DNA from: a virus
Strand: one strand, 5' to 3'
IMG/VR virus record: IMGVR_UViG_3300042261_002385
Location: 124,001-188,000 of that record
Length of the DNA: 64,000 nt
Within the stretch, counting starts at the first letter, position 1, and each line of letters begins with the position of its first letter. Shown here one piece after another: positions 1,957 to 35,596 of the stretch. The notes under the pieces are model-generated. The model did no database searches, had not been told where the DNA came from, and saw only the letters and a program-made list of their open reading frames with translations. The position numbers and the translations under genes were made by a program.

Positions 1957-2421
1957 ATGAAAATAAAACGACTTATTAAATATTATCTTTTAGGTGAATC
2001 TCTAAAAGAAATAGAAATGAATAGAATTCTAGATAAAATATCAAAAAAAGTAAAACTTACTGACAGAGAAAAGGGATTCTTAGAACTTTATAATCTAACA
2101 GTAACTAAATCAGAAGATAAAGATTGGATGATGTTATCAAAAAGTGCAACCTCAACAAAGGTAAAAGAACTAATCGACTCAAATAGAAAAGTAATTTGTG
2201 ACTTACACGATAGAAATGGAAAAATAGGTCTTCAAATTATAAATGTTTTAGATAGCATAGAAGAAGAATTCTCAATTTTAGAACTCAAAGGTGAAGAAAA
2301 TCACAAATTACAGGATAAATTTCTTTACAATTTAATATATAGTGTAAAGAAAAATGAATATTCTCTACAAGAACACGATGAGTATTTCGAAAAATTAACC
2401 GTAGAAGGTGGTGAAAATTAA
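1957..2421 (+). CDS. Hypothetical protein with possible capsid-targeting-like N-terminus
   Basis: 154 residues, mostly charged and helical, no recognised domain. It starts MKIKRLIKYYLLGES, which only partly matches the leader shared by many genes here: basic start and aromatics, but ending LGE rather than F-[IL]-x-E. The ATG is supported by an AAGGAG 11 bases upstream. Its 3' end overlaps the start of the next gene, so the two are probably cotranscribed and translationally coupled. Function unknown. Confidence 0.7.
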   Translation: MKIKRLIKYYLLGESLKEIEMNRILDKISKKVKLTDREKGFLELYNLTVTKSEDKDWMMLSKSATSTKVKELIDSNRKVICDLHDRNGKIGLQIINVLDSIEEEFSILELKGEENHKLQDKFLYNLIYSVKKNEYSLQEHDEYFEKLTVEGGEN

Positions 2422-2725
2422 AAAGTATCAAAATTTTATCTCTGAAGAAATATCAGGAACCGAGTTAGTTGGTCCAGTAGGACCGGCGTATGGTGAAACG
2501 AGAACTCAGAACAAAACAGTAAATAAGTCTCACACATCTCTTGTTGGAGTAGAAGATAGAAATAATCCAAATTCTCAGAACAGTCTCACAAGTGATCTTT
2601 TCTTTGAAGATGATTACAATAAAATACATAATGATTATCTGAAATCCGGTGGAAATCAGAATCAACTTACAGGTAACAAACAAGATGATATAGCTATAAT
2701 GTTAGATTTTTTACAAGAAAACTAA
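2411..2725 (+). CDS. Putative packaged internal protein with capsid-targeting-like leader
   Basis: 104 residues, polar and probably largely disordered (rich in Asn, Gln, Ser). The GTG at 2411 is preferred over the adjacent GTG at 2408 because it gives the N-terminus MKIKKYQNFISEE, matching the shared leader M-[KR]-x-x-x-x-[YF]-x-x-F-[IL]-x-E. By analogy with T4 internal proteins, cleavage after ISE would release the rest. It overlaps the end of the upstream gene by 11 bases. No enzymatic domain is seen. Confidence 0.7.
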   Translation: MKIKKYQNFISEEISGTELVGPVGPAYGETRTQNKTVNKSHTSLVGVEDRNNPNSQNSLTSDLFFEDDYNKIHNDYLKSGGNQNQLTGNKQDDIAIMLDFLQEN

Positions 2726-2765: not shown

Positions 2766-4112
2766 ATGAGTAAATTAATTAAACTAAACACAAGTGAGGA
2801 TAAAGCCCTTTTAAACGATATCTTAAATGATGAGTTAATAGTAATTGAAGACATACAGGGTTCTAAAATCTGGATTAAATGGGATGGTCAAAATTTTGAA
2901 ATAAGACCAAAGTCAATAACGAATGAACCAATCAATTTAATCGATTTAGCAATGCAGAATTACTATAATCCTGTCACTAAATTCTTCTCAGAATTAGATG
3001 ATAGAGTTAAAAGTTTACTTAATCGTAAGTGGTGGTTTTGTTTTGAGTATTTTCCTGATGAACAACCGGCTAATATTGAATATTCTAGAGTTCCAAAGAA
3101 TCATTTAGTATTGAGTTCTATAAATAAAGGTGGTAAATTTGAATTTAATATTGAAGAACTTGATGAATACGCAAGATTATTTGATGTAGATTTGATTCCA
3201 GTTATTTATCAAGGTCAATTGACCGAGACTATGAAAGAAGCAATTATCTACTTTCTAAACACATCTGAAGAAGATTTAGAGTATGTTTTTGGTGATAAAT
3301 CATTTTCTTACTTTTTTTACAAAATATTGAATCCAATTTCTGAAAACTCATTTTTGATGGAAGAAGATTTTCAACAGAATTTAGAAAAATTAATAATTCG
3401 AAGTTCAAAAAGAGATATATCTTTCGAGTTACTGAATCCACTATACAAAAGAATGAATGACTCAAACACAACTGAGTTTGTTGAAATCTACACACTAATA
3501 CTAATTAATTTCTTAAATTTCTGTCAATCAGTGCAATTAGAAAGTGTGAAATTAAAAGGTGATACAAAAGAAGAGATGTATATTTACTTAATTTGCAAAT
3601 TATTCAATATTTATGTATCAGAAGTAAAAGAAGACCTACTTAATTTTGATTTTGTTGTTCCGGAATTTTTTGATAAAGAAAAATTTAAAATAAACACTGA
3701 GTTAATTAAAAATAAATTGACTAAAGATTATCTTAAAGAAGATGATAAACTTGAATACATCTTCAAAGTAATTTTAGGCTCATTTAACAAGAAAAGAAAA
3801 AAACCAATTGGTATCTTTACAGAAAATACCGTAAAACTATTTAATAAATTTGTTGATGATATTGAAGTCTATTTAGGTCGATATCTAAATAAAATTCAAG
3901 AAATTGAACTTGGAAGAGCTGGATTGTTAGACTTTGGTGATTTCTTTGACATTCAGTATGATACAGATGCAGAAGGTCAGGTTTATCCAGATGTTTATGA
4001 TGAGTTTGAAAAAGAAGAAGAAACTGGTAAAAAGAAAAAAGGTAAAGGTGGTAAATTTCCAGTAGGAGCTCCAACTAAAGAGGCACCATCTAAAGAAACA
4101 CCTACTAAGTAA
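2766..4112 (+). CDS. Nucleotidyltransferase-fold-like protein (RNA-ligase-like), uncertain
   Basis: 448 residues. Near residue 55 there is IKWDG, resembling the K-x-D/N-G active site of ATP-dependent ligases and capping enzymes. Around residue 110 WFCFEYFP resembles the motif III segment of that superfamily. The middle is helical with no family I recognise. The C-terminus is a Lys/Gly-rich then Pro/Thr/Lys-rich tail (from about residue 420) that looks disordered. A TTTTTATATATA motif lies about 27 bases before the ATG. The stop overlaps the next start (TAATG), so the genes are coupled. The ligase-like reading is inference from two short motifs. Confidence 0.6.
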   Translation: MSKLIKLNTSEDKALLNDILNDELIVIEDIQGSKIWIKWDGQNFEIRPKSITNEPINLIDLAMQNYYNPVTKFFSELDDRVKSLLNRKWWFCFEYFPDEQPANIEYSRVPKNHLVLSSINKGGKFEFNIEELDEYARLFDVDLIPVIYQGQLTETMKEAIIYFLNTSEEDLEYVFGDKSFSYFFYKILNPISENSFLMEEDFQQNLEKLIIRSSKRDISFELLNPLYKRMNDSNTTEFVEIYTLILINFLNFCQSVQLESVKLKGDTKEEMYIYLICKLFNIYVSEVKEDLLNFDFVVPEFFDKEKFKINTELIKNKLTKDYLKEDDKLEYIFKVILGSFNKKRKKPIGIFTENTVKLFNKFVDDIEVYLGRYLNKIQEIELGRAGLLDFGDFFDIQYDTDAEGQVYPDVYDEFEKEEETGKKKKGKGGKFPVGAPTKEAPSKETPTK

Positions 4113-4312
4113 TGAACTCAATAAATCTAAATATGACTTCACTAGAAGTTAAAGCAGAGTTAAGACCCTTAAAGTGCGAATGGACACGTGAAATGGCTAA
4201 AGATTTACAACATCATAGAGATGTGGATATGAGTTCCTTTGAACTGTTTATTGCAAAACAAATAAGAGCTAATAATCGCAAAAATTCAATCAAAAATATA
4301 TTTCTTAATTAA
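4112..4312 (+). CDS. Small hypothetical protein
   Basis: 66 residues, starting in the TAATG overlap with the preceding stop, so it is probably made by translational coupling. It contains LKCEWTREMAKDL, an EWT-x-EM-x-x-DL pattern that I associate with short conserved proteins of large T4-like phages, but I cannot assign a function. Confidence 0.65.
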   Translation: MNSINLNMTSLEVKAELRPLKCEWTREMAKDLQHHRDVDMSSFELFIAKQIRANNRKNSIKNIFLN

Positions 4313-4344: not shown

Positions 4345-5574
4345 ATGAGAATCTCAAACGAATTAGAGTCAGTATACCGTTCCACAATCACTCAAAAGTT
4401 AGACAAAAAAACTAAATCTCTACAATTTTTACCAAAAAGTTTAGAAGAAATCAGTAAGAAAAAACATTTCTATTTTTCGGAAAAAAAACTGAAAACAGCT
4501 TATATTATTGACATCGTTCATAATATGATACTTAAGTACTACTTCAAAAAAGAAAACAAATTTACGATTAATGCGACTGTTTTAAAACAGAAATATGGAC
4601 ACGAGTATAAAGCTTATGTTGATTTTTTGATTTATAAACAAATTATAAAAATGAAATGTAACTATAAAGCAGGTGTTACTTCTAGAATTTATGAATTAAA
4701 TCCAATAACTTTTAAACAACCAATAAGTCGAGTAAAAAATGACGATAAGGTTCTTTTAAAAAAATATAAGAAAAAAATATACGACACAATAGATTTTGTT
4801 AAAAAAGATGACTCTTCAATTCAACCAGAAATTAGAGAAAAATTAATTTCAGACCTTTTTAGTGTTGATATTGACTTTCAAAGAAGTATATTCTTTTTGA
4901 ATTGCTTGAAAAAAGAAGATATTGACATATATAATAGAAATATCTATTCGGTAGAGTCTATTAACGACAAGCACATATTTTATCACTTCGATAACTATGG
5001 TAGATTACATACAAATTTTACAATACTAAAATCATTCATTAGAAAAAACTGTTTACTAATTGATGGAGAAGAAACTTGTGAGATTGATATCAATAATTCA
5101 CAGCCTCTTTTTTTGTGCAAGTTGATACAAGAAAGTGAAACTAATTGGGTGAATAAAGATGAATTTGATTTCTTTAGAAATTTAGTAATGAATGGTAACT
5201 TTTACCAGTATTTAATTCAAATTACCGGTGAAAAAGATAGAAATAAAGTCAAAGAAATGACCTATAAAGTTCTTTTTGGTCACAATAGAATAAACTCAAA
5301 ATCTGATAAAATATTTTCACAGTTATTTCCAACAATACATCATTTTATTAAGCTTTATAAAAAAGAATGGGGTAATCATAAAATAGTAGCTCATGACCTA
5401 CAAAGAGCAGAGTCAAATTTAGTCTATAACAAAATTATTAAAAAGATAATGTTACTACATCCAGAAATAAAGATTATCACAGTTCATGACTCAATAATAT
5501 TTGCAAAAAAATATAGACAAATTGTCCAATCTATTTTTGACTATGAATTATCAAATGAATTTAATTTAAAGTAA
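4345..5574 (+). CDS. Compact family A polymerase-like palm/fingers protein
   Basis: 409 residues. Three ordered motifs match the Pol I/T7 RNA polymerase superfamily. Motif A is EIDINNSQPLFL with D248 as the metal-ligand candidate. Motif B is R299-x3-K303-x3-Y307-x3-F311-G312, the same spacing as R659, K663, F667 and Y671 of the Taq O-helix. Motif C is VHDSI with H381-D382. A Tyr at the F667 position is DNA-polymerase-like (as in T7 DNA polymerase), whereas HDS is the motif C form of T7 RNA polymerase. No room exists for a 3'-5' exonuclease domain; the N-terminal 200 residues are basic and unrecognised. CATATATA lies six bases before the ATG. It could be a replicative, repair or RNA polymerase; activity is inferred. 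Confidence 0.7.
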   Translation: MRISNELESVYRSTITQKLDKKTKSLQFLPKSLEEISKKKHFYFSEKKLKTAYIIDIVHNMILKYYFKKENKFTINATVLKQKYGHEYKAYVDFLIYKQIIKMKCNYKAGVTSRIYELNPITFKQPISRVKNDDKVLLKKYKKKIYDTIDFVKKDDSSIQPEIREKLISDLFSVDIDFQRSIFFLNCLKKEDIDIYNRNIYSVESINDKHIFYHFDNYGRLHTNFTILKSFIRKNCLLIDGEETCEIDINNSQPLFLCKLIQESETNWVNKDEFDFFRNLVMNGNFYQYLIQITGEKDRNKVKEMTYKVLFGHNRINSKSDKIFSQLFPTIHHFIKLYKKEWGNHKIVAHDLQRAESNLVYNKIIKKIMLLHPEIKIITVHDSIIFAKKYRQIVQSIFDYELSNEFNLK

Positions 5575-5597: not shown

Positions 5598-6137
5598 GTG
5601 ATAGATTTAAACAGTCCTAGATTATCTTTTATTCTAATTTCATCTAATTCTTTAGATGATATGATGTCTATATTGTGGGCAAAAAACTACCAGATTATTC
5701 CTATCAAAGGATACTATAAAGGTCAGTATGAGGACTCTGCAATGGCTTTTGCTCCTGTTGATAATGATGAGCTAAGAAAGGAATTAATATTTTTATTAAA
5801 TCACTTTAAACAAGAATGTGGATTTATTAAATACTTTGGAGAAACTGACGTAACAAAAGTTTTTGCAGATGGTTCTGAAAAACCAATGGGTATAACTCTC
5901 TACAATACAGATGAAGAAAATATATCCTATCTTTATAACGGTATGAGTTTTTCATTTGTTGAAAAAGTAAGATATTGGAAACCTACAAAATTAGAAGATT
6001 TTAAAGTAGGAATGTTAGTTGAATATCTAAACAATAATAAGTGGTATCAGAAAAAAATTGAAGATCCAAAGAGTGACTGGGATAGTATGTTCAAGCTACT
6101 GACTAAATACGATAAAGTAAGAGTAGCTTCAATTTAA
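5598..6137 (+). CDS. Hypothetical protein
   Basis: 179 residues starting at GTG, chosen because TTTAATATATA ends four bases upstream. An N-terminal alpha/beta domain (SFILISSNSLDDMMSILWAKN) is followed by a C-terminal beta-rich part with the block KVGMLVEYLNNNKWYQKKI, which looks like a small SH3-like or KOW-like barrel. No known family is recognised. It is convergent with the next gene and overlaps it by four bases at the stop codons. Confidence 0.65.
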   Translation: MIDLNSPRLSFILISSNSLDDMMSILWAKNYQIIPIKGYYKGQYEDSAMAFAPVDNDELRKELIFLLNHFKQECGFIKYFGETDVTKVFADGSEKPMGITLYNTDEENISYLYNGMSFSFVEKVRYWKPTKLEDFKVGMLVEYLNNNKWYQKKIEDPKSDWDSMFKLLTKYDKVRVASI

Positions 6138-6478
6138 TATTGTAGACTATCATATGTCTGTAGTAATCTCTGTGACAATTGTTCTTTTTGTTCTTCTGTG
6201 AGCTCCTGACTAAACTCATCTTCAAACCACTCAACTAACTGGTCAGCAACTACTTCTTCAGCCTCACCAGAACCGTGTTCATCATACCATTCTCTTTTAG
6301 TCTCGTATTCGTATCCGCCTCTACTAATTTCTTTGAGGTTTTCATCATCAACCCAGTTTTCGATTTCGTCATCTACTTTATTTTTAACATCATATTCAGG
6401 AAAATGGTGTTTTATCTTAGCCATCGTGAAATCAATGTCAAAGTCTCTAAAATTTTCATATTTTTTTAATACTCTCAT
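6134..6478 (-). CDS. Putative packaged protein with leader, acidic
   Basis: 114 residues, very acidic. The N-terminus MRVLKKYENFRDFD matches the shared leader as far as the Tyr and Phe positions but lacks a clean I/L-x-E site, so cleavage is doubtful. It overlaps the upstream leader-bearing gene by four bases (ATGA type) and forms a run of three such genes (6134-8247). Function unknown. Confidence 0.7.
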   Translation of the reverse strand: MRVLKKYENFRDFDIDFTMAKIKHHFPEYDVKNKVDDEIENWVDDENLKEISRGGYEYETKREWYDEHGSGEAEEVVADQLVEWFEDEFSQELTEEQKEQLSQRLLQTYDSLQY

Positions 6479-7239
6479 AGTTGAAAAAAATCTTTTAATG
6501 ATTTAAGGAAATTATTTATTTGTTGAATCTCTTGTTCATTTCCTTCCTCTAATATATATTTAATAGTTTCATTTTCAGAAACATATTTATAAGCTCTTAA
6601 TTTGTCACCATATTCAAATTCACCAAGAGATTTACCGATATATCTTTCTAAGTCTTGTTGTAAACCCTCTGAAGTTTCCCATCTTTCGAATACATCTGAA
6701 TCATCTTCATCATTATAATCTAATTCTTCTAAATCTGTAGTATCTAAGATATCAATTGATTTTTTGACAGAATCACCGAATCCTTCTCTATATACCCAAC
6801 TGTCATCACACATGTCTAATATATCCTGAGCGGTTTTGTTAAGGTGATTGATTCGTCTTTCGGTTTTATCTTTAACAGTTGCCCAAAGAGAAGTAGTAAG
6901 GTCTTCAAATAAACCAAACATTGAATAGTCATCATCAGAGTCAATTCCAAATTGATTGTCATTGTAAAGTTTATTTTCATAATCTTTTACTAAGTCAAGT
7001 AACTCATCAAGACCACCTTCACCAGTCAATTTTGAATCTATGAAAGATTTCAAATCAGATTGAAAATCTTCACTATTAACAATTTTTGTATCATGATAGT
7101 AATGTTTTTCATGAACATCAATTACCTTATTAATAGCATTCTTACATCTACCAACAGCTACCAAAAAATCAAATTCTAAGTCTTCATTTTCTGAATTGGA
7201 TTTACCCCAGAATTCCTCATATAGTTTAATAGTTCTCAT
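6475..7239 (-). CDS. Putative packaged protein with leader
   Basis: 254 residues, acidic and mainly helical. It starts MRTIKLYEEFWGKS, matching the shared leader in the Met-Arg, Tyr and Phe positions. No catalytic motif is recognised. It lies three bases after the preceding gene of the same type and overlaps the following one, so the three are almost certainly one transcript. Confidence 0.7.
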   Translation of the reverse strand: MRTIKLYEEFWGKSNSENEDLEFDFLVAVGRCKNAINKVIDVHEKHYYHDTKIVNSEDFQSDLKSFIDSKLTGEGGLDELLDLVKDYENKLYNDNQFGIDSDDDYSMFGLFEDLTTSLWATVKDKTERRINHLNKTAQDILDMCDDSWVYREGFGDSVKKSIDILDTTDLEELDYNDEDDSDVFERWETSEGLQQDLERYIGKSLGEFEYGDKLRAYKYVSENETIKYILEEGNEQEIQQINNFLKSLKDFFQL

Positions 7240-7242
7240 TTT

Positions 7243-8247
7243 TTATTTTATTTTTAAATGTATATAAAGCCAAAATGATTCTGGTTTAACGCTAATCAAT
7301 ACTTTATTAGACCATTTTTTTGTCATTAACCAATTTGTAAAATTGTTTTTGATATTTTGATATTCACCTTCATCAAGTTTTCCATTATCCCAACGACCAA
7401 CTCCGTAGTATCCAAAAGTTATAACTCTATCTCTCAACATAGGAGTAAGTTTTTTTTCAAAATAACCAGGAGTAAAAGTCTTCATATCTAGTTTAATCTG
7501 ACCTATTGTCAAAATATCTAAATAATTTAGATTGACTATCTCTTTCTTTAAGGAAGAGGCCGATTTTGATTCTAAACTTAGAATCCATTTTACAACTGAT
7601 TGTGATAGTTTAAATTGACCAATTGGAAATCTCATATCATATTCAATACCATATTCAAACTGACCAGAACAATTTAGTCCAAAATATAAACCAAGTTCAT
7701 TCTTACCATAGTCTATTAAATGAGTATATCTATCTAAACTTCTAAATCTTGCAAATATTTGTCTAACGAATTCAGAATTTAAATTCTGAAAAGAATAATA
7801 AAGTAGAAAATCTTCAGGACATAAAGACCAGTTAGGATTTGATTCTTTCAGACCCAAAGCTGTAAGTGACTTTAAAAATGAATTAAAAATACCTTTACCA
7901 GCTACACTCACTTCAGATTGAACCTCAATTGATTCACCCAATAACTCAGTTGTATCAGTAGAAGGTGTGACTACAGGTTGTTTATCCTGTATACCATTTT
8001 GTAGATAGTTTTCTATTTGAAGTTTTATTTCAAGTTTTGCTCTATCGTCTAATAAATTTACCGCATTTACTAAATCAATTGTTGGATTAATATCCTCTCC
8101 ACCATATAGTTTATTATGATCATCAATATATCTATTTACAATATTCAATATATATTCATCTTCACAAAGTGATTCTATCCACTTACCAAAAGACTCGAAA
8201 TCTTCAACAGATTCGGAAATAAATTGTAAATATCTTTTTATCAACAT
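7243..8247 (-). CDS. Putative packaged protein with leader
   Basis: 334 residues. MLIKRYLQFISESVED is a near-perfect leader ending in ISE, the I-x-E type of site cut by T4 prohead protease. A helical segment to about residue 90 is followed by a low-complexity Thr/Val linker and a folded C-terminal domain of about 200 residues (from SVAGKGIFNSFLKSL) without recognised motifs. The start is fixed by TTAATATATA four bases upstream. Confidence 0.75.
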   Translation of the reverse strand: MLIKRYLQFISESVEDFESFGKWIESLCEDEYILNIVNRYIDDHNKLYGGEDINPTIDLVNAVNLLDDRAKLEIKLQIENYLQNGIQDKQPVVTPSTDTTELLGESIEVQSEVSVAGKGIFNSFLKSLTALGLKESNPNWSLCPEDFLLYYSFQNLNSEFVRQIFARFRSLDRYTHLIDYGKNELGLYFGLNCSGQFEYGIEYDMRFPIGQFKLSQSVVKWILSLESKSASSLKKEIVNLNYLDILTIGQIKLDMKTFTPGYFEKKLTPMLRDRVITFGYYGVGRWDNGKLDEGEYQNIKNNFTNWLMTKKWSNKVLISVKPESFWLYIHLKIK

Positions 8248-10368: not shown

Positions 10369-12891
10369 TTATTGGTTTATATTTATAATTGTTAACACAT
10401 CATTCTCATCATAATAAGATAATCTATCTAATCCATTTGAATTTTTAAAAATATTACAACTATAATCTTCATAGACAGATGGAGTTCCTGAAACAGAAAG
10501 AACAGTCAATGTCAAATCAGTTTCACCACCAAAAGAAGCAGAAGCTATTGTAAGAGTATCATTAACAGAAAATCCAATTCCTGACGCACTGATAATAACC
10601 TGTGAGACAACACCGGATGAAACTTGTACATCAAAATATGAGTTTATACCAGAACCACCTGTTGCACCAACCGCCAAGTGTAATGTGTCAGGTGAAGCCG
10701 TGGCCGAGCTCCAAGTTATTGACGTGACTGTATTGTAATATGTAAGAAAATTATATTCATTAAGATTGTGAATTTTTACATCATTGTTTCTAAAATAGTC
10801 ACCAATTTCGTTGCCATTGAAAAGATCTTGAATAAAATTATTATAAAAATATTCCCCTACTGTATTTTGATTAAAATAGTTACCAATGATGTTACCAAAC
10901 GATTGAGCTCCACCATATCCGAAGTCATTCTGAATATTATTGTTGTTAAAATAATTACCAATTTTATTAAATGCAAAATTGTTAGCTAAAGTATTACTAT
11001 AAAAATTATCACCGATGGTATTAGAGAAAAAGTCATTACCAATATTATTATCATAAAAATAAGAACTTATTATATTTTTCTCAAAATTATCACCTATAGT
11101 ATTATAAATAGATTCACATCCAATTATGTTTTGATGTATGTTATTACCTAAATCATTATATGAAAAATTTTCTCCAAATTCATTACCAGTGGTATGACCA
11201 AAGAAAAGATTGCCTTTGACATTAGATTTACAAGAATTTTGTCTGAAATCATTAGCTCCATAGTTTTCAAAATCTCCTACAATATTATCATTGAAGTTAA
11301 ATCCAATTTCATTTCTGTAAAAGAAATTATAAATATCATTACTCACAAAATCATTAAAAATTTTGTTTTCATAGAAATCTCTATAAATATTGTTGTTTTC
11401 AAATCCATTACCAATATGATTTTCATAAAATTGAACTTCTCCAAAGTTTGCAATATCACCTATGATATTATTATAAAAGTAATCTCCTATCTTATTGTCT
11501 CTAGTAGTAGAGTAAAATTTATTAGCATTTCCTCCATTACCAAGAGTATTAGACTCAAACTCTCCACGAATTTCATTATTATTAAAACCAACACCAATAA
11601 TATTTTTTAAGAAACCATCAGAAAGAGTATTTATAATATTATTATTAAAGCCATTTCCAATTATATTATTTTGAAAGTCTTGTCCTGAGATTTTATTATT
11701 ATCAAATTGATTATTAATTCTATTTCTATAGAAACTACCAACAGTAATAATATTATCATTAAAATCTTCACCAACTGAGTTTCTTTGAAAATTAGCAGTT
11801 ATAATATTTCTTTGAAAATAATTTCCTATCTGATTCTGGTCAAAGTCATCATCTGTGATATTATGAGAAAAGAAATTACCTATTGTGTTATTGCTACAAT
11901 CATCATCAAAAGTGTTATTGTAACAATTATTTCCGAATCTGTTATTATAATAAGAACCATCTAAGAAAACGTTGTTTGATAATACAAAATTTCCTATACC
12001 GTCCTGTAGGTAAGAATTAGCATGATCCCCGATGTAATTATTAAAAGCAGTAACACCATCAAAAGTTCTAATATTATAGGATTCACTATCAACATTGGTC
12101 TTTTTAGGACTACCGAAGTTCATTATATAGTTGGCAGAATAGTATTTTATATCATTAGCAGTAACATCCCAAACTGAACCAGTCAATGACATGGCGGTAG
12201 CACTTGTTATTGTATCAATTTTAAAAACCTCTTCACTAAAGTATGGTAAAGCAATTACATCACCTTCTGAAAAGTTTGTGAAAACAGTATCAACACCAGT
12301 GACTATACCACCTACTACACTAACTGTTCCTGCCTGTGGATTATTTATATCATATAAATAATAATCATATCTCTTAAAATAAACTTCTCTATGGTCATAG
12401 TCAGTTCTATTATTCCACTCATCTATTCTTTCTGTAATTCTACCATATGCTGTTCCACCGGTATGCTCAGACTGAGTAAACGATATATCATATTTGATTG
12501 AATCTTTCGGAAAATCAGGCTGATATGCATCAATAGACAGAGCCGTGGCACTTATAGCCATCACAATAATTGAATGTGTACTACCGACTTTGTAACTATC
12601 TTCACTGTGAGTTGGATTTCCATAAATGTCATAATCTGGTTGGTCATAACAAGTTTTAAAATCCGATATTTCATAAAATCTACCAGGAACTAAATTTTCT
12701 GAAGTCACTAAACTAAGTAATGAGAAATATGTCACTATTGAATATGAACTAGAACCCCCTCCAGTATTGTTAGTATTTCCATTTTCATCTTTTTGACTGA
12801 AATTAGGCCCATCAAAACCAATATATTTAAATCCTGCTGGTGGGTTTGGCAAAGATGCGAAATCTGTCTCTTGAAAAATTAATCTTCTCAT
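10369..12891 (-). CDS. Giant Asn-ladder beta-helix appendage protein
   Basis: 840 residues. Roughly residues 290-690 are dozens of short imperfect repeats of about 10-11 residues with the theme I-G-N-x-F-x-x-N-x-I (for example NYFQRNIITANF), giving stacked Asn, Phe/Tyr and Ile positions. That is the signature expected of a right-handed parallel beta-helix with Asn ladders. The N-terminal region (FKYIGFDGPNFSQKDENGN) and a C-terminal domain rich in Ser/Gly flank it. Likely a tail spike or fibre recognising a surface glycan. A TTTAATATATA element lies 23 bases upstream. Confidence 0.75.
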   Translation of the reverse strand: MRRLIFQETDFASLPNPPAGFKYIGFDGPNFSQKDENGNTNNTGGGSSSYSIVTYFSLLSLVTSENLVPGRFYEISDFKTCYDQPDYDIYGNPTHSEDSYKVGSTHSIIVMAISATALSIDAYQPDFPKDSIKYDISFTQSEHTGGTAYGRITERIDEWNNRTDYDHREVYFKRYDYYLYDINNPQAGTVSVVGGIVTGVDTVFTNFSEGDVIALPYFSEEVFKIDTITSATAMSLTGSVWDVTANDIKYYSANYIMNFGSPKKTNVDSESYNIRTFDGVTAFNNYIGDHANSYLQDGIGNFVLSNNVFLDGSYYNNRFGNNCYNNTFDDDCSNNTIGNFFSHNITDDDFDQNQIGNYFQRNIITANFQRNSVGEDFNDNIITVGSFYRNRINNQFDNNKISGQDFQNNIIGNGFNNNIINTLSDGFLKNIIGVGFNNNEIRGEFESNTLGNGGNANKFYSTTRDNKIGDYFYNNIIGDIANFGEVQFYENHIGNGFENNNIYRDFYENKIFNDFVSNDIYNFFYRNEIGFNFNDNIVGDFENYGANDFRQNSCKSNVKGNLFFGHTTGNEFGENFSYNDLGNNIHQNIIGCESIYNTIGDNFEKNIISSYFYDNNIGNDFFSNTIGDNFYSNTLANNFAFNKIGNYFNNNNIQNDFGYGGAQSFGNIIGNYFNQNTVGEYFYNNFIQDLFNGNEIGDYFRNNDVKIHNLNEYNFLTYYNTVTSITWSSATASPDTLHLAVGATGGSGINSYFDVQVSSGVVSQVIISASGIGFSVNDTLTIASASFGGETDLTLTVLSVSGTPSVYEDYSCNIFKNSNGLDRLSYYDENDVLTIININQ
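10780..12000 (-). repeat. Asn-rich beta-helix repeat tract
   Basis: DNA coding the I-G-N-x-F-x-x-N-x-I repeats. Repeats are diverged at the nucleotide level, suggesting old expansion under structural selection. Boundaries approximate. Confidence 0.6.
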
Positions 12892-22486: not shown

Positions 22487-22906
22487 TTACTTAATCATTT
22501 TGACTATTTCGATAAAAGCCTTTTCTGTTCCTTTTATAACATATTCATACAAACCGAATGCATTATTTTTAGTTGGAACTTCATCGAAAAATTTAAGATT
22601 GTTTAAAATCTCATCTATATCATTTCTCCATTTTAGATAAAACTCATAAATATCAGCATCATTTATAAAACCTCTTACTTTAACATCTTTTGGATTCTTT
22701 GTATATGATTTCATAAATGAACTAAATTCACCACCTGACTCTTCAATTGTCTTTTCAATCATTGATTTAACTTCTTCAATAACCTCGGTGTATTTTGAAG
22801 AATCAGACGCATCAGTTTCTTCCGCGGTGGCTTGGCTTTCCTCTGGAACTTGAGCTTCGGTCTCATCCGCTTCTGTTAAAAATTGAACGTATTTTCTAAG
22901 TTTCAT
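22487..22906 (-). CDS. Putative packaged protein with leader, acidic
   Basis: 139 residues. MKLRKYVQFLTEADET is a clean leader ending in LTE followed by Ala, the same residue order as the T4 internal protein leader (F-I-A-E-A). An acidic Glu/Ala-rich linker to about residue 40 is followed by a helical domain. It lies inside the appendage block but has its own four-base-spaced promoter motif. Confidence 0.75.
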   Translation of the reverse strand: MKLRKYVQFLTEADETEAQVPEESQATAEETDASDSSKYTEVIEEVKSMIEKTIEESGGEFSSFMKSYTKNPKDVKVRGFINDADIYEFYLKWRNDIDEILNNLKFFDEVPTKNNAFGLYEYVIKGTEKAFIEIVKMIK

Positions 22907-22910
22907 ATGT

Positions 22911-34213: not shown

Positions 34214-34234
34214 AATTTTAATATATATTAAAAG
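34214..34234. promoter_or_regulatory. Palindromic bidirectional promoter spacer
   Basis: Only 21 bases separate divergent ATGs at 34213 and 34235. The core TTTTAATATATATTAAAA is a perfect palindrome, offering the late-type motif on both strands 7-8 bases from each start. Confidence 0.6.
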
Positions 34235-35596
34235 ATGAAACTTAAAAGATATTTACAATTTATAAAAGAATCTCTTAAAGAAGATTTAGAGTCAGGTAAA
34301 ATCTGGGAATTAGATGAAGACCAGATTCGTGAATATCTAATAGAATTAGATGATGCTGGATATTTAATCACTGTAGGTTTTGGATTTGTAAAAAGAGAAA
34401 CTATACATCGTTACCATAGACCTTCAGTAGAAAAAGATTTTTATACTGAAAAAATGCTTGCTGGTGAAGAAATTAGACCAGCTTACAATATAGTAATAGA
34501 AAAATCAAGTGATTTAAGTAAAGAAGATGTGACAGACTCATTGAAGTTTGCTTGCTCAATTATAGAAGGAGAAGGTGACTGTGATGTAGAATTAATAGCT
34601 GGTGATGGTGGAGTTTTAGATATAGATGCAGTATTAGTTCAGGGTGGATTTTTTACTGATGTTGATCCAGAAGATGAAAATTCTGGTATAGAATTAGAAG
34701 GATATAATGCATCACTATCAATTTTTGCTAAACAAAAAAACACAATTAAAATCAAACCACAAGATTTAGAAGACTATTACGGATGGGATGTTTCAGTAAA
34801 AAAAGAAGGTCAGTTATGGGCTGAAATTGATTTAGAAGACTTAGCTGATTTTATCCTATCACCAAGATCCGAATACAAAGATTCTTTAGTTAAAGGACAA
34901 GAATATATGTGGGATTATTATGATATTTCAGCTTACTATCCAGATATAATTTCGCTTTTTAATTATAGTGTAGATAAAGAAAATGAAGTTTTAGTAGTCA
35001 AAGCAATAATTAAAGAATTAGGTGGATATGAACAAGCTATAAATCATATCGGAGATGAATGTGATAATCAAATTTATGAAGAGGTTAAAGATATGACAGA
35101 AGAAGAACTTATTGAATATCTGCTATCAGAAAGGTTTTATAAAACTATCAAACAATTAGCAAGTCATTCAATGGTCCTACAAGAAATCAGGGACACAATA
35201 GCTAACTGGGAGATGTCAGCTCATTGTGACGAAAATTATGACCAAATAGTAAGTAATTTTGATGGTATAGTTAATGATGAATTAGGTCAATATGAAAAAG
35301 TAGTGAAAGAAGTCACTAAATATTACAACTCAAAAGACGCTGAAGGAAATCAAGTAAGAAGAGAGTATAAAGATAATGTTACTTATTATCAATTTCCATA
35401 TAGTAATGATTGGATTTCGGAAACGGATTCTGAATATTTATACAATAAAGAATTAGATGACCTTTTTAGAGACTTTGTTAGAGAATCAGATATTGATAGA
35501 ACTTTAAATCCAAGAATTTCTGACTACGGTGATGTCAATAAAGAAGAAATGAATAAAGATATTAAAGCTTACTTAACTAGATACTTATCTGAATAG
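34235..35596 (+). CDS. Putative packaged protein with leader, acidic, 453 residues
   Basis: MKLKRYLQFIKESLKE is a clear leader ending in IKE followed by Ser. The mature part is strongly acidic with alternating helices and beta segments and no motif I recognise; the C-terminal half has several Tyr-rich stretches. Divergent from the leader-bearing kinase gene across a 21-base palindromic promoter, so two cargo candidates may be co-regulated. Confidence 0.72.
   Translation: MKLKRYLQFIKESLKEDLESGKIWELDEDQIREYLIELDDAGYLITVGFGFVKRETIHRYHRPSVEKDFYTEKMLAGEEIRPAYNIVIEKSSDLSKEDVTDSLKFACSIIEGEGDCDVELIAGDGGVLDIDAVLVQGGFFTDVDPEDENSGIELEGYNASLSIFAKQKNTIKIKPQDLEDYYGWDVSVKKEGQLWAEIDLEDLADFILSPRSEYKDSLVKGQEYMWDYYDISAYYPDIISLFNYSVDKENEVLVVKAIIKELGGYEQAINHIGDECDNQIYEEVKDMTEEELIEYLLSERFYKTIKQLASHSMVLQEIRDTIANWEMSAHCDENYDQIVSNFDGIVNDELGQYEKVVKEVTKYYNSKDAEGNQVRREYKDNVTYYQFPYSNDWISETDSEYLYNKELDDLFRDFVRESDIDRTLNPRISDYGDVNKEEMNKDIKAYLTRYLSE

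Follow-up and report, generated by a model that had tools for sequence, protein, structure and literature searches.

The window, a stretch of 64,000 nucleotides of DNA covering bases 124001-188000 of a 436,265-bp viral record, contains at 4345..5574 (+) an ORF for a 409-aa protein with the features of a minimal superfamily A (TV-Pol-like) polymerase. All residues named in an earlier, sequence-only reading of this ORF are present. The N-terminal half of the protein (approximately residues 1-133; 4345..4743, +) is winged-helix-like in the AlphaFold2 secondary structure and stands in place of the exonuclease domains of Pol I. It is followed by a helical segment at the position of the thumb (residues 135-207; 4747..4965, +), with helices at 135-150, 161-171, 178-188, and 193-207, which we infer to be the thumb. 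The next element, a beta-hairpin with the sequence GR220-x-HTNxT (4999..5022, +; strands 213-215 and 221-223), carries an invariant Arg and is the counterpart of Pol I motif 1. Motif A, D248-I-N-N-S-Q253-P (5086..5106, +), provides the catalytic Asp and, five residues further on, a Gln at the steric-gate position, which corresponds to E710/E615 in Pol I. Motif B, R299-x3-K303-x3-Y307-x3-F311-G312 (5239..5280, +), forms the O-helix (residues 299-311 in the model) and is in register with E. coli Pol I. Q353-x2-E356 (5401..5412, +) lies in the long helix preceding motif C and aligns with the Q849 region of Pol I, and motif C reads H381-D382-S383 (5485..5493, +).

We assessed the conservation of these positions in an alignment of 76 homologues, comprising 35 bacterial and 41 phage rows. 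R220, D248, Y287, K303, E356, and D382 are invariant (76/76); both catalytic Asp residues, whose loss in homologues had been raised as an argument against a polymerase, are thus retained throughout. S252 and Q253 are each present in 75 of the 76 sequences, bearing out the Gln noted at the E615 position, and N251 and Q353 are each present in 74. The residues flanking the motif C Asp vary slightly more (H381 in 71/76, S383 in 69/76). The spacing of motif B is as described earlier and K303 never changes, but R299 is not invariant (R in 51 and K in 22 sequences; 32/35 bacterial rows have R, and phages have either of the two), and position 311 is F in 65 and Y in 10 homologues. The Tyr reported at the F667 position holds for 40 of the 41 phage rows (Y307), but not for the bacterial rows, which mostly have Phe, suggesting that this ddNTP-type Tyr is a clade feature. 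No invariant Asp was found in the fingers, where TV-Pols have a conserved one; in the phage alignment E273 is nearly invariant. Judged from these sequences, the motif pattern is beyond chance.

AlphaFold2, run with 65 homologues, gave a confident model (pLDDT 91.0, pTM 0.85). Hairpin, palm, and fingers occupy approximately residues 213-405, after the thumb-position helices and the winged-helix-like half, in agreement with the core of about 200 residues proposed earlier; the palm, whose absence had likewise been named as an argument against a polymerase, is present. According to the model, the protein has shortened fingers, no exonuclease, and no RNA polymerase (RNAP) N-terminal domain. A Foldseek search of the PDB returned the apicoplast DNA polymerase first (E=3e-4, probability 1.00), followed by POLRMT and M. 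smegmatis Pol I. The TM-scores were modest (0.26-0.45), indicating that the match covers the core and not the whole chain, and E was <=0.001 for only 3 matches. The N-terminal half gave short, weak matches to MarR-type wHTH proteins (E 0.2-1). The identical pipeline applied to the 448-aa protein encoded upstream returned RNA ligases, which serves as a specificity control for the polymerase match. In a viral structure library the nearest entries were two proteins of 403-409 aa, one of them named 'Putative DNA polymerase I', and further matches of 400-450 aa included a 'DNA polymerase' of Rheinheimera phage Barba31A. A profile comparison against six enzymes of the Pol I type put motif B, the Q-helix, and motif C in register, with a marginal E=0.038 in this single comparison, and motif 1 gave a second, short profile match.

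Sequence databases did not reveal the family. The window protein had no match in Pfam or NCBIfam, including none above the cut-off to PF00476 (DNA polymerase I family), and nothing significant in PHROGs, and PDB sequence searches with the protein and two profiles gave chance matches only. Hence, standard databases are blind to this enzyme, which is small and DNA polymerase I-like but intact. The fold, the conserved two-metal Asp pair, and the O-helix Lys are established computationally, and the structure matches and conservation agree with the original proposal of a minimal polymerase of family A type; its catalytic core is intact.

That proposal had also seen mixed hallmarks of DNA and RNA polymerases, of which the RNA polymerase side came down to the HDS of motif C and is not upheld: Pol I aligns in register and T7 and SP6 RNAP do not, the gate is Gln where RNAP has Gly, and most homologues have Phe at the position of T7 Y639. 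A single-subunit RNAP transcribing a class of phage genes would fit the HDS, which T7 RNAP shares, the appearance of POLRMT among the fold matches, and the failure to find an RpoB-type gene in this phage and five huge-phage relatives, and an equal suggestion has been published for divPolA2 (PMC11348598). We nevertheless regard it as quite improbable, because, besides the Gln gate, Phe occupies the T7 Y639 position in 65 of the 76 homologues, profiles of T7 and SP6 RNAP (two sequences only) gave no correct alignment, a 409-aa protein has no room for a long RNAP-type N-terminal domain, and the bacterial homologues are housed in mobile elements.

The gene lies in a conserved neighbourhood, which we examined by counting gene order in 39 sampled phage loci. 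Upstream, at 2766..4112 (+), is a gene for a 448-aa protein with an RNA-ligase fold (AlphaFold2 pLDDT 70.6; Foldseek match to T4 Rnl2 with E=2.4e-6 and probability 1.00), which is present in 36/39 loci and adjacent in 29. A 66-aa ORF (4112..4312, +) separates it from the polymerase gene and has a homologue at the same place in 14/39 loci. Downstream, a gene for a 179-aa protein (5598..6137, +) occurs on the same strand in 36/39 loci, in 35 of them adjacent. The three larger genes thus share strand and order in most sampled loci. Homologues of the 448-aa protein are encoded in all Mahaphage-type records with the polymerase except LR756511, and additionally in LR756500. No helicase family was found among the adjacent window genes.

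This arrangement would be expected if the polymerase and the RNA-ligase-fold protein formed an RNA- or nick-repair pair, with the polymerase filling in missing nucleotides before end joining; jumbo phages are known to couple RNA ligases with nucleotidyltransferases (PMC7824862). However, the two genes are far apart in LR756501 and LR756504, showing that the pairing is not universal, and the families listed beside the bacterial homologues include no ligase-fold neighbour. Moreover, aligning motif I by eye placed E28-D29-x-Q-G-S of the 448-aa protein against E-K-I-H-G-T of T4 Rnl2, so that the apparent position of the nucleophile Lys is an invariant Asp (Asp29), making ligase activity doubtful. 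The Lys of a KWDG in the window's protein is not conserved, and we rejected the neighbour as an active ligase. Altogether a repair pair appears very improbable.

We also looked for other replication proteins of this phage. The genome encodes family B polymerase genes, a gp61-like primase, and homologues of gp41 and UvsX, and had no match to PF00476, PF07733, or DNAG_N. The primase of the window's record was identified by a phmmer match to gp61 (E=3.6e-7), a Phrog_47 search of that record being negative; Phrog_47 primases were present in 5/5 huge-phage relatives searched. In the sampled phages the polymerase gene is not beside other located replication genes, which counts against the accessory role that we favour below. 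The family B polymerase and the gp61-like primase imply that the 409-aa protein is neither the sole replicase nor the sole primase. We rejected the role of replicative polymerase on account of the family B genes, and that of sole primase because gp61-like primases are present, although no DNAG_N domain was found. A plasmid Rep function was dismissed since both Hymenobacter plasmids that encode relatives have a rep gene of their own, and a defence function for lack of a meaningful PADLOC match. The family B matches of this phage (G000:C1:203506-203952, -, and 317539-318897, +) lie in two ORFs of ~500 aa, >100 kb apart, that cover mostly different parts of the profile and look like a split PolB. 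LR745206 and LR756502 contain similar pairs; those of LR756501 and LR756504 are less complete.

Homologues of the polymerase were found in >100 viral contigs and in huge-phage records of 595-735 kb. All phage genomes >634 kb in the study of Al-Shayeb et al. belong to the Mahaphage clade, for which infection of Bacteroidetes is predicted. More distant homologues are present in assemblies of Bacteroidota, Opitutae/Opitutaceae, and Pirellula and on the two Hymenobacter plasmids. Among 396 genomes searched with a profile, all from one phylum and taken around a Fluviicola genome (Bacteroidota), 14 matched. As far as homology searches can tell, huge phages of the Mahaphage group commonly carry the polymerase, and in Bacteroidota it is sporadic. 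In a tree of the 76 sequences, 40 phage sequences and one 7.6-kb MAG contig form a single clade (support 100/99), while the LR756511 protein is placed among bacterial sequences with weaker support (88/77). Well-supported branches force at least two changes between phage and bacterial carriers. The idea of a distinct branch, put forward from the window protein, has thus gained the support of fold, conservation, and tree. The MAG contig (L054) is binned as bacterium UBA1459, groups with a huge-phage sequence, and is probably a phage fragment inside the MAG.

The sampled bacterial relatives are often near integrases, HTH_17 (excisionase-like) genes, and restriction or methylase genes; their neighbour proteins included integrases (9/84) and one resolvase. 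Two loci stood out. A Flavobacteriaceae homologue (L069:7245-9484) is directly followed by a 5'-3' exonuclease gene (PF02739), which contrasts with the published description of TV-Pols as never being linked to nucleases (PMC2579912). In LR756511 (L051:4563-7009) the homologue overlaps the start of a gene for a 428-aa PF00476 polymerase (ATGA), so that two small superfamily A polymerases are encoded in one operon; the same phage has a DNA_pol3_alpha gene.

Sugar selection can be discussed from the residues at two positions. In the Klenow fragment E710 excludes rNTPs, T7 RNAP has Gly at the equivalent position, and T7 Y639 selects ribose. The Gln gate and the predominance of Phe at the T7 Y639 position would weakly favour dNTPs in this family. 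To our knowledge, a steric-gate Gln is unprecedented among characterised enzymes, and a preference for dNTPs is for this reason a guess.

Our best guess at the predicted activity is an accessory, dNTP-preferring repair or priming polymerase. Stated in full, we hold it somewhat likelier than its opposite that the protein is a minimal superfamily A polymerase of the TV-Pol/divPolA type with its catalytic site intact, and that it would act as an accessory DNA-templated, dNTP-preferring enzyme and not as the main replicase. Palm, reduced fingers, and thumb-position helices would be combined with a winged-helix-like half that may bind DNA, without an exonuclease. Such an enzyme could extend short primers, or make them, where there are gaps, damaged forks, or alternative start sites, working beside the family B polymerase, the T4-like primase, the helicase, and UvsX. 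Mobile elements in Bacteroidota hosts probably share the gene with the phage or were its source.

Alternatively, the protein could be a primase or prim-pol that binds ssDNA template and initiates de novo by means of its N-terminal half or of a small partner, for instance the 179-aa product. Prim-pol activity has been predicted for TV-Pols, and for CcPol-MP, an A-family enzyme, primase activity is proven (PMC2579912, PMC7581432); the conserved same-strand downstream gene and the DNA-binding-like N-terminal domain seen with Foldseek are consistent with such a role. Against it speak the gp61-like primase already encoded by this phage and its huge-phage relatives and the failure to see a D5-type helicase, either beside the phage gene or among the Pfam families shown for the bacterial neighbours. 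We consider a primase unlikely.

Because Pfam, NCBIfam, and PHROGs overlook this second polymerase, which is conserved in the largest known phages, the replication or repair inventory of these phages is incomplete. With 409 aa, no nuclease, and an unusual Gln gate, the protein is a compact test case for sugar selection, and also for the idea that a TV-Pol-like enzyme existed before either Pol I or T7 RNAP. A bolder version, which we deem distinctly unlikely, is that a separate minimal superfamily A family, with a D-I-x-N-S-Q-P motif A and a Gln gate, spans Mahaphages and mobile elements of Bacteroidota, would start and extend chains with both rNTPs and dNTPs, and might be a living example of the primase-polymerase state proposed as ancestral.

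Two other features of the window deserve mention. Several ORFs start with a leader such as MKLRRYGQFIxE or MKYLKLFEEF, namely 2408-2725 (+), 6134-6478 (-), 6475-7239 (-), 7243-8247 (-), 22490-22909 (-), and 34232-35593 (+), with ~28 more elsewhere in the genome. Of the 486 ORFs, 34 carry such a leader, and shuffling gave an expectation of 2.3. We take these leaders to resemble the T4 capsid targeting sequence of internal head proteins, and the ORFs are candidates for packaged or ejected proteins. At 10369-12891 (-), an 840-aa ORF of short Asn-rich repeats (e.g. IGNYFxxNxI) possibly encodes a beta-helical fibre protein.

Minimal or truncated superfamily A polymerases are already known as TV-Pols (2008), PolA-SSB primases (2020/2023), and divPolA2 (2024). 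Compared with Pol I (PF00476) and T7-type RNAP, the window protein shares the palm catalytic Asp pair, the spacing of the O-helix Lys, and the HD of motif C. It differs in having no Pfam match and a Gln gate where Pol I has Glu and RNAP has Gly (T7 G542), and its 409 aa, with a wHTH-like N-terminal half, include no promoter-binding N-terminal domain. The PolA-SSB primases, including CcPol-MP, which was shown to prime DNA (PMC7581432), and the further PolA-SSB pairs of Rice 2023 (PMC10061031), likewise have an A-family catalytic domain with truncated N-terminal domains in mobile elements. However, those enzymes are closely similar to housekeeping Pol I, and their genes share an operon with those of an OB-fold partner and a helicase, whereas the 409-aa family has diverged strongly from Pol I and no OB partner is known for it. 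DivPolA2 of barbaviruses (Yutin et al. 2024, PMC11348598) is also a second small PolA-type protein beside a family B replicase, maybe for repair or as an RNAP, with an N-terminal globular domain and no exonuclease. A barbavirus protein was among the Foldseek matches of the window protein. An hhalign comparison with its representative AUR84708 (430 aa) aligned motifs 1, A, and C (E=8.6e-4, one comparison), and a profile search of the AUR84708 genome gave no match. AUR84708 has a Glu gate and FDE in motif C, in contrast to Gln and HDS here.

The closest correspondence is with the TV-Pols (Iyer, Abhiman, Aravind 2008, PMC2579912). This group, of which CcPol-MP is a member, was defined as minimal superfamily A polymerases carried by mobile elements and viruses. 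TV-Pols have a core of 400-600 aa without a nuclease domain and occur in viruses and mobile elements of bacteroidetes, planctomycetes, and verrucomicrobia beside integrases or resolvases. The window protein has their pre-palm beta-hairpin with an absolutely conserved Arg (R220), the RRM-like palm with two metal-binding Asp (D248 and D382), and the RxxxK of the fingers (R299-x3-K303), and its context is viral, with bacterial relatives near integrases. The TV-Pol thumb consists of two antiparallel helices; the model has helices 135-207 at this position. A profile of our family did not match Microcystis phage Ma-LMM01, named in the TV-Pol study, and a Pol I profile and motif patterns located no TV-Pol there either. 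In contrast to the all-helical TV-PolN, the N-terminal half here is winged-helix-like; the Arg of RxxxK is replaced by K in many huge phages, a D5 helicase partner was not found, and one relative neighbours a 5'-3' exonuclease gene (L069) and another overlaps a PolA-type gene (L051). Overall, without claiming membership of the TV-Pols as proven, we would class the family as a TV-Pol-like variant, marked by its Gln gate and by an N-terminal half that is winged-helix-like.
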